Shown here: positions 31,900-36,377 of the stretch, one piece after another
Numbering within the stretch: position 1 is the first letter of the stretch
Layout: every line of letters begins with the position of its first letter
Assembly (NCBI RefSeq): GCF_004102725.1
Contig: NZ_LHQS01000001.1
Location: forward strand, 477,327-541,326
Origin: Methanoculleus taiwanensis
Lineage (GTDB): Archaea; Halobacteriota; Methanomicrobia; Methanomicrobiales; Methanoculleaceae
DNA length: 64,000 nt
Direction: 5' to 3'
Program-made: the position numbers and the translations under genes
Notes under the pieces: model-generated
What the model was told of the DNA's origin: nothing
Database searches by the model: none
What the model saw: the letters and a program-made list of their open reading frames with translations, nothing else

Positions 31900-32175
31900 A
31901 TGAAACCTGCCGATACCTTCCGGGGCGGCACCGATGTGGTGCGCGAAGACGAAAGTGCCCACTGCTTCACAGGGCACGAAAAATGTGAGGCCGAACGAAG
32001 CGGATATCGCTTCCCGTCGGGCGAGGGCGGCTTTGCGTCATCGAGCTTCGTCGGCAAAGGTACTGTATTTTTCTTCGTGAGAGAGATGGAAGGGATCGGG
32101 TGGATGGAAGATCCGTTCAGTCATGGCCGGGGGGAGATGTCTGAACCGGCTTATCGCCGCTGTCGCGTTGTGTAA
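31900..32175 (+). CDS. Possible small hypothetical protein
   Basis: A 91-codon frame with GC-rich third positions (starts KPADTFRGGTDVVRED). There is no recognised domain, no clear ribosome binding site and no strong TATA box. An upstream in-frame start at 31867 is possible. It may be a chance open frame. Confidence 0.25.
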   Translation: MKPADTFRGGTDVVREDESAHCFTGHEKCEAERSGYRFPSGEGGFASSSFVGKGTVFFFVREMEGIGWMEDPFSHGRGEMSEPAYRRCRVV

Positions 32176-32253: not shown

Positions 32254-32772
32254 TTACTCGGTTGGGGTGATGCACCGGTGTCCGCAGGTGCCGTTCTGGG
32301 GTCGTGCGGGAAGTTCGTCCCGGTGTTCCTCCATGAACTGCTGCATAAGCGCCCGGGCGGTTTCATGGTCGCCGTTATCGATGGCGTCACGGATCCCGGA
32401 GACGTCATACCCCTGCTGCTCCAGGTCGTTGAGGCGGGCGAGCGGTCCGAAACCCCGGTTGCCGTTTTCGGGCCGTGCGGGAAGTTCGTCCCGGTGTTCT
32501 TCCATGAACTGCTGCATGAGGGTCCGGGCAGTTTCATGGTCGCCGCTCTCGACGACGGCTCTAATCTCCGAGACGTCGTATCCCTGTGCCTCGAGTTTGT
32601 CGAGGAACGCGTCCGGTCCCAGACCCAGTTCTCCGTTCGGTAAGGCGCCGCCTCGCGGCCCGATGCCCTCGCCGGCCGTTCCGTTCTGGAATGCAGCGGC
32701 TGCGGGGGCTGCCAGGAGTGCAAGGATGCAGAACACCGATGCGACCCCTATTGCGATTGTGCTTCTCTTCAT
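32254..32772 (-). CDS. Secreted protein with two near-identical internal repeats
   Basis: 172 residues. A signal peptide (SVFCILALLAAPAAAAF) precedes two ~50-residue repeats, each containing QGYDVS-x-IR, GDHETAR-x-LMQQFMEEHRD and ELPARP (roughly residues 52-102 and 105-155), then a short tail. Each repeat is predicted helical, resembling small helical metal- or stress-related periplasmic domains, but I recognise no family. The ATG at 32772 follows GGAGG. Upstream at 32841-32873 lies copy B of the dyad promoter. The repeats are also close at DNA level, consistent with recent internal duplication. Confidence 0.75.
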   Translation of the reverse strand: MKRSTIAIGVASVFCILALLAAPAAAAFQNGTAGEGIGPRGGALPNGELGLGPDAFLDKLEAQGYDVSEIRAVVESGDHETARTLMQQFMEEHRDELPARPENGNRGFGPLARLNDLEQQGYDVSGIRDAIDNGDHETARALMQQFMEEHRDELPARPQNGTCGHRCITPTE

Positions 32773-32840
32773 AGGTTTCCTCCATCTGTCGTTGGGTTCA
32801 GGCGTTTGCCCCGTCATGATACATCGGGGTCGTTGCGCCA

Positions 32841-32873
32841 TGTAAAGTATGTTATACATATTGTTATTAATAG
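32841..32873 (-). promoter_or_regulatory. Dyad operator plus AT box, copy B
   Basis: TGTAAAGTATGTTATACA (32841-32858, imperfect dyad) followed on the plus strand by TATTGTTATTAATAG. It lies about 70 bases upstream of the repeat-protein start and has the same spacing and order as the copies at 31752 and 33762. Confidence 0.65.
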
Positions 32874-33794: not shown

Positions 33795-33913
33795 GTGACG
33801 TACTGCTGGGTCGACCTGCATGGAGCATCCTGATCGTCTGAGCCCCTCTCCTCACTTCGGGCTGAGGCGAAACGAGAAGGTATATCATCCGCACCCGGCA
33901 AACCTCCATTCAT

Positions 33914-34222
33914 ATGAGCGAAACAGACGGTCGCTTCGTGAACGGGCGGTGGGTCGAAGAGCCCGAACCCGAAACCGATCAGATCCCGATTGAGACCGGC
34001 CCGGCACCCGGAAGCGAGCCTCGCACTGAGGATCTCCTCGCCGATGCCTCCCGGTCGGTTACGAAAGCTGTCGACGACGTCGTCCTGGCCGCCCGGCACC
34101 TCTTCGGAACGCCGGAGGGGCGGGAGCATATCGAGCGGTCGGCACGGAAAGCCGGTTCCGATCTCGAGAAGGCGATCAACGAGGTGGCGGAGAGCGCCCG
34201 GCGGAGACTGGAACGCCGTTAA
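33914..34222 (+). CDS. Small FxxGRWVE-motif protein (paralogue 1)
   Basis: 102 residues with no recognised family. The N-terminus is ETDGRFVNGRWVEEPEPE, followed by a disordered acidic/Pro linker and a C-terminal amphipathic helical part (HLFGTPEGREHIERSARKAG, then LEKAINEVAESARRRLERR). The protein at 35831 has the same order of elements, so the two form a small family. There is no signal peptide. GTATATC about 35 bases upstream may be the TATA box. Confidence 0.7.
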   Translation: MSETDGRFVNGRWVEEPEPETDQIPIETGPAPGSEPRTEDLLADASRSVTKAVDDVVLAARHLFGTPEGREHIERSARKAGSDLEKAINEVAESARRRLERR

Positions 34223-34238
34223 TCTCCCGCCTTTCGCG

Positions 34239-34763
34239 TCAGAAGGCCAGGCTGACGACGCCGAGCGCCATTGCCATAACTATTCCCGATGCGATCATCC
34301 ACCCGATGAGCATGCAGATCACTGAGAGCATGCGGGGATACTGGAAGAGCCGTGCGACGACGGGGGTGCCGTAGAGCGCGATCCCGGGAATCCAGATGAT
34401 CGGGATCAGCGTTAAAACTCCGTACTTCCGGAAGTAATCTACTTCCCGCGTCTTTTCATCGACTTTCCGGAGCAGGCCGTTGAACCGTGCCCACCTGGCG
34501 GCGAGGAGATCGCTCAGTTCGAAGATGGCGAACATGACTCCGGCCGCGACTGAAGTGACCAGCGCGAGCACCACGAAGGGGTGCAGGTGGAACCCGAGCC
34601 CGACCGCCGCCGCTCCTGCCTGCAGGAGGAGCGTCGATACGATCAGCGTGATCACGGCGGGGGGATCGAGCCTGGACGTAACGCCGAGTACGAACGGAAC
34701 GGCGAGAATAAAGATGACGATTGCTGCCACGGCTCTGGCAATCCGGGAGAGGCAGTTCCTCAT
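34239..34763 (-). CDS. Small multi-drug export protein-like membrane protein (PF06695 type)
   Basis: 174 residues with five or so membrane helices. The signature region is YFRKYGVLTLIPIIWIPGIA with a preceding cytoplasmic helix (RWARFNGLLRKVDEKTREVD), resembling the small multidrug export/DUF families with SNARE-associated features. Direct evidence for drug export is lacking in the family. The ATG at 34763 is preceded by GGAGTCCTCG; a longer start at 34820 is less likely. The gene converges with the small protein gene ending at 34222. Confidence 0.7.
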   Translation of the reverse strand: MRNCLSRIARAVAAIVIFILAVPFVLGVTSRLDPPAVITLIVSTLLLQAGAAAVGLGFHLHPFVVLALVTSVAAGVMFAIFELSDLLAARWARFNGLLRKVDEKTREVDYFRKYGVLTLIPIIWIPGIALYGTPVVARLFQYPRMLSVICMLIGWMIASGIVMAMALGVVSLAF

Positions 34764-34893
34764 CGAGGACTCCTGCGAGCATTCACCGGTGAACGATCTC
34801 TCTGCCATCTCCTGTCGCACCCACTATTCACGGCCGGGGGCTTGAAGCTATGCTCTGCGAGCACTCTTCCCGGTGAATGGGTGCTTTGCCCCC

Positions 34894-35697
34894 TCACGCT
34901 CCCCCGTATCTCCTGACGTGATCCCACGACCGGCAGAGCTTCCCGTGCTGCTCTCCCGGTTCGTAGGGCGAGGCGTCCTCTCTTCCGTAATGCTCCCGGT
35001 CTTCACCGACAGGGCAGACTTTGATGCAGATGCCGCAGGGAGAGATGTGGCGTTTATTCAGTGCAGCGCTGTGTGCGGCGCAGGCATGTCTGTTGGTCAG
35101 GCCTTCCGGGTAGCCTTCACGGTCGAGCGCACCGGCCGGACAGAGCCGGACGCAGCGCATGCACCGGGTGCAGAGCTCGTGGTCGATCATCGGATCCGGC
35201 GGGAGCGGTGCGGCGGTGAGGACGGAGCCGAAGCGGATCCTGGGGCCGTACTCCGGGGTGAGGATGGTGTTGTTCACGCCGAAGGTTCCGAGCCCTGCAA
35301 GGAGCGCTGCGTGCCGGTGCGAGAAGAAGGCGATGGGATTCTTCCGGAGCACCTCGATGCTCCCGTAACCGTCCCGCGGCACGAAGACCGACGGGTATCC
35401 CTGTTCATTTAAAAATGAGGCCAGGCGGTAGGTATACTGGTCGAGGAGCGTGTTGACCGTTCTGTAGAGTTCGTGGTAGTAGATGGAGGGCGAGGTCTCG
35501 AGCACCGGAAGGTGGATAGGCAGGCCGATGACGATCACCGATCGTGCCCCGGAGAATATCGACTGCGGAAAGAACTCTTCGGGCATCCACGGCCGGAACG
35601 GGGGATGTTCCCACCGCTCCACGTTTGCCACCCCGACGAGCGGGATCTCCATCTTTCGGCACCGTTCCCTGACGGCATCTTTCAGTTCATTGGTCAT
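34894..35697 (-). CDS. QueG-like iron-sulfur oxidoreductase
   Basis: 267 residues. The N-terminal domain resembles epoxyqueuosine reductase QueG and related cobalamin-dependent proteins (VIVIGLPIHLPV, GFGVNNTIL-type segment LAGLGTFGVNNTILTPEYGP). The C-terminal ferredoxin domain has CTRCMRCVRLCP and a second CGICIKVCPVG cluster. Archaea make archaeosine rather than queuosine, so the true substrate is probably different. The start at 35697 is chosen because upstream frame sequence lacks homology. The opposite-strand gene at 35831 begins 133 bases away. Confidence 0.75.
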   Translation of the reverse strand: MTNELKDAVRERCRKMEIPLVGVANVERWEHPPFRPWMPEEFFPQSIFSGARSVIVIGLPIHLPVLETSPSIYYHELYRTVNTLLDQYTYRLASFLNEQGYPSVFVPRDGYGSIEVLRKNPIAFFSHRHAALLAGLGTFGVNNTILTPEYGPRIRFGSVLTAAPLPPDPMIDHELCTRCMRCVRLCPAGALDREGYPEGLTNRHACAAHSAALNKRHISPCGICIKVCPVGEDREHYGREDASPYEPGEQHGKLCRSWDHVRRYGGA

Positions 35698-35830
35698 GCC
35701 TTGATCAACCGAAGTTCTTTGCGGGCCAGCTACAAAAGGGTTCACGCCCCTCCCTTCTCCACCCGGGCGGTCATATGCCTGACCGACAGAACCAGATAGG
35801 TTTATCCTGTGCCGATACATCTCTTCATCG

Positions 35831-36121
35831 ATGAGCGAAAAGAAAGGTCATTTCGAAAAGGGCCGGTGGGTCGAGGACAACGCCCCGGTATCGGTGCCGG
35901 AATCCGCACCGGCCGTCCCGACAGGTGAGAGACGTACGAACGAAGCATCCCATGCGGTTCAGATGGCGGTCGAAGGCATGGTCAGCTCCGGTCAGCACCT
36001 CCCCGGAACACCGGAGGGGCATGACCATATCGAGCAGGCAGCACGGATTGCGGCCGAAAACCTTGAAAGAGCGATAAACGAGTGGTCGCTCTCTGCCCGA
36101 CTTGCCTTGAGAAGGTTCTAG
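35831..36121 (+). CDS. Small FxxGRWVE-motif protein (paralogue 2)
   Basis: 96 residues. It matches the protein at 33914 in order: GHFEKGRWVEDN at the N-terminus, a variable linker, then HLPGTPEGHDHIEQAARIAA and LERAINEWSLSARLALRRF. No known domain is recognised. GGTTTATCC lies about 30 bases upstream of the ATG, fitting a leaderless transcript. The two paralogues bracket a membrane protein gene and a QueG-like gene. Confidence 0.7.
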   Translation: MSEKKGHFEKGRWVEDNAPVSVPESAPAVPTGERRTNEASHAVQMAVEGMVSSGQHLPGTPEGHDHIEQAARIAAENLERAINEWSLSARLALRRF

Positions 36122-36194: not shown

Positions 36195-36332
36195 TCAAGC
36201 ATCGACGCCATTCCCGGACGGATCCCGGTAGCGGGTAAACCGCCCGCAGACCGGATCGGGACACTGTTCGCAGTGCTCCAGATGACGCTCATTGACAGAA
36301 CAATCGAGGATAAGGTAGCTATCGGCATCCAC
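36195..36332 (-). CDS. Possible small Cys-rich protein (45 aa)
   Basis: A frame starting with GTG at 36332 encodes 45 residues including LDCSVNERHLEHCEQCPDPV and CGRFTRYRDP. Four Cys and two His in a C-x9-C-x2-C-x4-C spacing look like a zinc-binding knuckle. Codon third positions look coding. It is in the same frame as, and 45 bases beyond, the TAG stop of the MATE gene, but does not resemble a MATE tail. A GGACGGG four bases before the GTG may be the ribosome site. It could instead be a remnant of a larger Cys-rich protein. Confidence 0.4.
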   Translation of the reverse strand: MDADSYLILDCSVNERHLEHCEQCPDPVCGRFTRYRDPSGNGVDA

Positions 36333-36377
36333 GAATCCCGTCCCGAACGGCCTGCGGAGGGCCTCAGGGGCGCAGGC

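Follow-up and report, generated by a model that had tools for sequence, protein, structure and literature searches.

The window analysed here, a stretch of 64,000 nucleotides from a Methanoculleus genome of 2.75 Mb in 12 contigs, contains two short open reading frames, P1 and P2, which share several sequence motifs. The question raised by this locus is whether the two genes encode members of a described protein family and, if they do not, what proteins of this size might do in these archaea.

Two related genes in the Methanoculleus window

Both reading frames were confirmed on the forward strand, together with the common motifs GxFxxGRWVE, HLxGTPEGxxHIExxAR and LExAINE that had been noticed in the initial annotation (Table 1). 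P1 and P2 could be aligned over nearly their full length with 48% identity (E 1.5e-17), and they were the sole clear mutual relatives in their own genome, the other matches of P2 having E values of at least 0.03. Judged by their sequences, they are paralogues, i.e., duplicate copies of one real conserved family. The family genes are under purifying selection: the dN/dS values against Methanoculleus sp. FWC-SCC1, a named relative whose best-matching segment is 75% identical to P1, were 0.165 for P1 and 0.30 for P2 (74 aligned codons). No tandem repeats were found between positions 31900 and 37000 of the window.

Table 1. Features of the P1/P2 locus (positions in the window)
Feature	Position	Strand	Evidence or remark
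TATA-like element of P1, tatatc	33881..33886	+	33 bases before ATG
P1, family member of 102 aa	33914..34222	+	ORF listing, mutual alignment, dN/dS
P1 motif, residues 6-15, GRFVNGRWVE, predicted beta-hairpin	33929..33958	+	AlphaFold, alignment, entropy
P1 predicted helical hairpin, residues 38-101	34025..34216	+	AlphaFold; helix periodicity across family
Sm_multidrug_ex-like membrane protein, convergent with P1; probably outside the system	34239..34820	-	Pfam, neighbour comparison
4Fe-4S protein, divergent from P2; probably outside the system	34894..35697	-	Pfam; start at MTNEL, listed ORF runs to 35820
TATA-like element of P2, tttatc	35801..35806	+	30 bases before ATG
P2, paralogue of P1, 96 aa	35831..36121	+	ORF listing, alignment, tree
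P2 motif, residues 6-15, GHFEKGRWVE, predicted beta-hairpin	35846..35875	+	alignment, AlphaFold
P2 predicted helical hairpin, residues 32-95	35924..36115	+	AlphaFold

Upstream TATA-like elements

Each of the two genes has its own TATA-like element, as had been proposed, and the upstream regions from the taxonomic family of the window (f1) gave the same picture. A TATA-like element, defined by a pattern chosen after inspection of the upstream sequences, was present within -42 to -20 in 33 of 35 f1 regions, 31 of these elements starting at -33 to -30, and in 1.3% of 28-base pieces drawn at random from the window; L101 was excluded from the count, its upstream stretch being too short. In archaea the TATA-to-start distance is usually about 25 bases, so elements at -33 to -30 imply a transcription start at the ATG or within a few bases of it. 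A promoter conserved across the order was sought and not found, as only 9 of 77 members outside f1 carried the element, at mixed positions. The TATA-like element is a trait of f1 and not of the protein family at large.

Searches for known families

The initial annotation held that no described family combines these features and that placement in one by a sensitive profile search would overturn this view. Such a search was run on Pfam, NCBIfam, PHROGs and PDB sequences, and P1 and P2 were placed in none of them. No Pfam or NCBIfam match lay above the curated cut-off where cut-offs were shown, and no model had an E value below 0.001 in several members at large. Helical proteins diverge fast, the scope of the search was sequence libraries and the PDB, and single members do touch known models, so that a known family might have been missed; the best such contact in a diverse set of 20 members was Dodecin (E 4.6e-4), for which 17 residues of a single member scored 20.9 bits, the cut-off being 22.5. 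However, the Pfam and NCBIfam matches were weak, each occurring in one of the 20 members at E 0.01, and PHROGs returned nothing under E 0.01 (best E 0.017). The tail-bearing g34 proteins described below matched coiled-coil models, again below the cut-offs (best E 1.6e-4, SHE3), PDB profile searches yielded a designed bundle (E 1.1e-4 and 0.0094) and SNAREs, and the best Foldseek hit of the P1 model had an E value of 0.77. We therefore give very little credence to membership in a known family.

Weak matches that stem from amphipathic helices linked 5 of 12 members to Apolipophorin-III (PF07464; best E 0.042) and one of the 12 to YtxH (PF12732; best E 0.016); at E 0.01, the diverse set matched neither. 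VIA-align of the P1 model reached Z values of 8.5-9.5 over 71-76 residues, with common helical hairpins only. The designed proteins 5izs and 6dmp and the Mediator subunits Med11/22 (3r84) resemble the family in having a helical hairpin of about 70 residues, and the top structural row, a segment of RNA polymerase (8eos_D), is a generic two-helix likeness. The identity of these four structures to P1 was 7-16%, Z values of this size are usual among helical hairpins, and the N-terminal motif lay outside the alignments.

In the open-licence PMC literature, no title or abstract start was found that names such a family. By the sequence evidence, this is a genuine order-restricted family without a name in the searched libraries. 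Orphan families are common; this one is well defined, has a putative function only and is worth a name.

Distribution in the order Methanomicrobiales

With P1 as query, matches were obtained in 36 of 40 f1 genomes, including all 26 with at least 90% completeness and little contamination. Methanoculleus is a member of the order Methanomicrobiales, within which a 12-sequence profile matched 152 of 232 genomes and 29 of 40 genera. Among the 135 genomes of the order that were at least 90% complete, 104 were matched, the count being identical with the 12-sequence profile and a broader 20-sequence profile. No genome of genera g13 and g24 was among the matches of either profile in this search, and most family-bearing genomes had one copy. 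Because 31 of the 135 fairly complete genomes gave no match, the protein is dispensable.

A total of 392 genomes of the phylum was searched with the 20-sequence profile, of which, by the kinship labels of the listing, about 83 belong to the order and about 309 lie outside it. There were 64 matches in the order and one outside (E 3e-4, within a frame of 777 residues), and the narrower 12-sequence profile gave three marginal matches among the outside genomes, one of them with four internal stops. As candidate relatives from outside the order, these marginal matches were rejected and read as chance. The family thus appears to be confined to Methanomicrobiales, with marginal, chance-like matches only and no credible member among the roughly 309 genomes sampled outside.

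Order-specific genes without assigned function have been described before: PMC2686161 reports 62 signature protein clusters of Methanomicrobiales, 26 of them hypothetical. By the definition given there, a cluster had to occur in all species of the class that were analysed; the present family had no match in genus g13.

The conserved motif and the variable linker

The members were compared in an alignment of 113 distinct proteins (effective number 53), a subset of the profile matches from which the weak own-genome matches L005-L007, identical proteins and loci inside larger fetched stretches had been dropped. The architecture was constant and consisted of an N-terminal GxFxxGxW motif, a variable linker and two amphipathic helices on either side of a TxEG turn, both helices and the turn being present in P1 and P2. 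The consensus N-terminus was M-[TS]-E-K-K-G-H-F-E-K-G-R-W-V-E, and G-x-[FY]-x2-G-x-[WFY] was found in 111 of the 113 members, including P1 and P2 (L095 was counted by reading from a later start codon). Conservation within the family is strongest in the motif, with a mean column entropy of 1.18 bits compared with 2.88 for the linker and 2.20 and 2.12 for the two helices, and the six positions of lowest entropy include G6, F8, G11 and W13 of the motif and T66 and G69 of the helix turn. The linker spanned 7-57 aligned residues with a net charge between -12 and +3. Cysteine was absent from 111 members.

The DNA of 39 genomes, 29 of them family-bearing and 10 family-free, was searched with a degenerate pattern encoding G-[HR]-F-x-x-G-R-W-[VI]. 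This pattern carries 27 bits (about 0.04 chance matches expected per genome) and is stricter than the family motif, the family genes of 11 positive genomes not being matched. It gave 22 matches in 18 of the genomes, all 22 inside family genes; the 10 family-free genomes had no match, and the reversed-pattern control gave two (G031 and G125). Since the strict motif occurred in no other protein of the 39 genomes, it is not a general tag, and a tag common to other proteins was ruled out for this pattern. The lowest entropy, the variable linker and the exclusive occurrence of the strict motif lend support to the suggestion in the initial annotation that the motif could be a docking peptide.

Predicted structure of the helical region

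AlphaFold models were built from 5 sequences. In the P1 model, strands were predicted at residues 6-9 and 12-15 and helices at 38-63 and 67-101 (mean pLDDT 70.0, pTM 0.39; block means of 75-88 for residues 41-100), and in the P2 model, strands at the same residues and helices at 32-56 and 61-95 (mean pLDDT 70.7, pTM 0.38). The two models concur in a hairpin at 6-15, a disordered linker and two helices. Across the 113 members, V49 and L63 are conserved in helix 1, T66-x-E68-G69 in the turn and I73, E74, A80, L84 and I88 in helix 2. Each helix bears a single hydrophobic stripe, with peaks at 99 and 98 degrees, which shuffled sequences equalled in fractions of 0.0005 and 0 of 2000 (0.96 for the linker, taken as comparison).

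The pLDDT of the motif was only about 57-63, so the motif may fold back on its own helices. In that case its beta-hairpin might cap the helical hairpin, and the protein would be one compact unit that regulates or chaperones a single enzyme, with no docking by a tethered peptide. This would agree with the joint conservation of the motif and the TxEG turn and with the freedom of motif placement in the models. The linker, however, varies eightfold in length and is unconstrained in sequence, which fits a tether better, and genus g22 has lost the motif yet kept the helices. A compact protein of this type is considered distinctly unlikely.

The helices were also examined as a possible membrane-binding part. 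Amphipathic helices could lie on the cell membrane as in a peripheral protein, with the motif recruiting a partner there. The hydrophobic period of 3.64 and 3.67 residues per turn for the two helices is near the 11/3 period of lipid-binding helices, and at the edge of the nonpolar face of helix 2 (60-90 degrees) basic residues (0.23) outnumber acidic ones (0.05). In class A lipid-binding helices of the apolipoprotein type, basic residues line the edge of the nonpolar face and acidic residues occupy the centre of the polar face. This pattern was not found: the edge is partly basic in helix 2 only (0.05 in helix 1), and the polar-face centre is acidic in neither helix, that of helix 2 (150-180 degrees) having 0.40 basic and 0.23 acidic residues. 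Nor was there a strongly hydrophobic stretch, the best 18-residue mean having a median of 0.24 and a maximum of 0.45 on the Eisenberg scale (113 members), and 15-40% of the residues on the nonpolar face, which is also the face of the hydrophobic stripe, are A, G or S. A peripheral membrane protein is thus regarded as unlikely. The earlier proposal that the helices bind membranes or nucleic acids found no clear support, given the low mean hydrophobicity, a net charge of about 0 and a charge pattern that is only partly of class A.

Duplication and variant copies

In a tree of 43 proteins, P1 grouped with its counterpart in G037, a genome of the window's genus (98/90), and P2 fell on a long branch within the clade of g3 main copies (29 rows, 100/99), next to the FWC-SCC1 counterpart with incomplete support (93/82). 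From these positions, the duplication is most likely older than the separation of g1 and g3. The P2-type copies change fast; that of FWC-SCC1 has 74 residues and is without helix 1. Copies of 72 residues in G002 and G029 likewise are without helix 1 and keep the motif and helix 2, which are under purifying selection, with a mutual dN/dS of 0.14 (72 codons). Wherever truncated copies occurred (in G002, G029 and G037), a full copy was present in the same genome, so the truncated ones may not stand alone.

Two further variants concern the ends of the protein. In genus g22 (L055 and L110), the helical hairpin is kept and the motif and linker are replaced by a highly charged stretch, the N-terminal half of L055 being lysine-rich. 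In g34, the second copy at L059 (6648-7590, genome G165; 280 aa) and L131 (genome G170; 222 aa) have a long helical or coiled extension and a lysine/proline/alanine-rich tail, which we take to resemble the tails of histone H1 or PhaF. The two g34 copies are similar to phasin-like proteins with a histone H1-like tail in combining a helical part with a K/P/A-rich tail; unlike them, P1 and P2 of the window have no tail. The g34 tails and the lysine-rich half of L055 would suit a binder of nucleic acids or polyanions, located at the nucleoid or at polyphosphate granules. Against this, tails occur in only 2 of the 113 members, the net charge is -6 for P1 and -3 for P2, and the median helix charges are -1 (helix 1) and 0 (helix 2). 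The PHA-granule model (PHA_granule_1, TIGR01837) matched one of seven scanned proteins, a tail-bearing g34 copy, at 14.3 bits against a cut-off of 94.7 (E 0.032). All 39 genomes tested encode a histone, whether they have the family or not, and a link to histone content was rejected. Such a role seems highly improbable.

A tentative scaffold model

The explanation that we prefer, as a plausible reading short of a probable one, is that the helical hairpins form a small oligomer in the cytosol, which presents the motif peptides on their tethers to a conserved partner. The reading takes conservation, linker variability, selection and the restriction of the strict motif to this family from the sequences and the folds from prediction; self-association and docking are what we infer. 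The helical hairpins would pack together into a small bundle, leaving several motif peptides on flexible tethers to dock with a partner that is conserved in these archaea, so that the protein could act as a multivalent connector or scaffold. A hydrophobic stripe with small residues on the same helix face is expected for helix packing, and truncated copies in G002 and G029 that keep the motif and helix 2 are expected if helix 2 pairs in trans. Evidence against the scaffold comes from the low confidence of the models (pTM 0.38-0.39, mean pLDDT 70 and a weak motif), the motif loss in g22 and the absence of the family from 31 of 135 fairly complete genomes.

A bolder version, conceivable if rather doubtful, is that GHFEKGRWVE is a new aromatic docking peptide which, on a helical scaffold, organises a partner complex peculiar to these methanogens. 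Copy number, linker and tail would then be retuned between genera, as by the loss of helix 1, the loss of the motif and the gain of an H1-like tail. If the motif is a docking peptide, pull-down should give access to its partner. The protein is short and nearly cysteine-free, occurs in 104 of 135 fairly complete genomes and has a clear motif to mutate, and so offers a practical entry to an order-specific process.

Neighbouring genes

The initial annotation placed P1 and P2 around a membrane protein and a QueG-like iron-sulfur protein. Both genes do lie between P1 and P2, the first with a Sm_multidrug_ex score of 30.4 bits, just below the cut-off of 30.7, and the second with a Fer4 score of 35.9 bits against a cut-off of 21.1; the name QueG-like was returned by no search. 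That they form one system with P1 and P2 was not supported. The two genes adjoin family genes in the window and at L037, L042 and L043, all from f1; at L044, another f1 locus, the fetched 16 kb contained neither. In the f1 genome G012, the 4Fe-4S gene is far from the family gene. Outside f1, it was inside the fetched stretch only at L045, and among the tested genomes from outside f1 that encode the protein, the gene is on another contig or far from the family gene, except in G050 (about 6 kb).

At E 1e-20, the 4Fe-4S protein had a match in 31 of the 39 genomes. Strong copies (E <1e-75) were commoner in family-bearing genomes, with 25 of 29 (absent from G102, G111, G113 and G120), than in family-free genomes, with 4 of 10 (G049, G125, G153 and G221), a difference with a Fisher p of 0.009 in genomes that come, especially the negatives, from few lineages and so are not independent. 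The gene positions thus lend no support to a functional link with the bracketed genes, and the co-occurrence speaks against regarding the 4Fe-4S protein as a mere neighbour, within the limits of that sample. In G123, three equal-scoring 4Fe-4S matches (contig C1, 18049, 2256206 and 2274870) lie near both contig ends, which reflects either a recent duplication or an assembly fault.

No neighbour common to the fetched loci of all families was found. In the f5 loci (L038 and L051-L056), a secreted-looking protein was encoded within a few kb of the family gene in 7 of 8 fetched, and in 5 of 8 there was a gene for a Yip1-domain membrane protein. The secreted-looking protein fits no Pfam family, and its end resembles a PGF-CTERM sorting signal. 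Together with the Sm_multidrug_ex-like protein of f1, these frequent membrane or surface neighbours would suit a peripheral membrane protein, but part of the gene order in f5 is conserved in any case.

DUF3795 genes adjoin the family gene at L037, L048 and L049. In the window, a stretch of 45 residues between P2 and a MATE gene (36219-36353, reverse strand) is 56% identical to a DUF3795 protein and looks like a remnant. On the other side of the locus, positions 32254-32859 (reverse strand) encode a small exported-looking protein, the best Pfam match of which is below its cut-off, with two copies of the repeat GYDVSxIRxxxxxGDHETARxLMQQFMEEHRDELPARPxNG.
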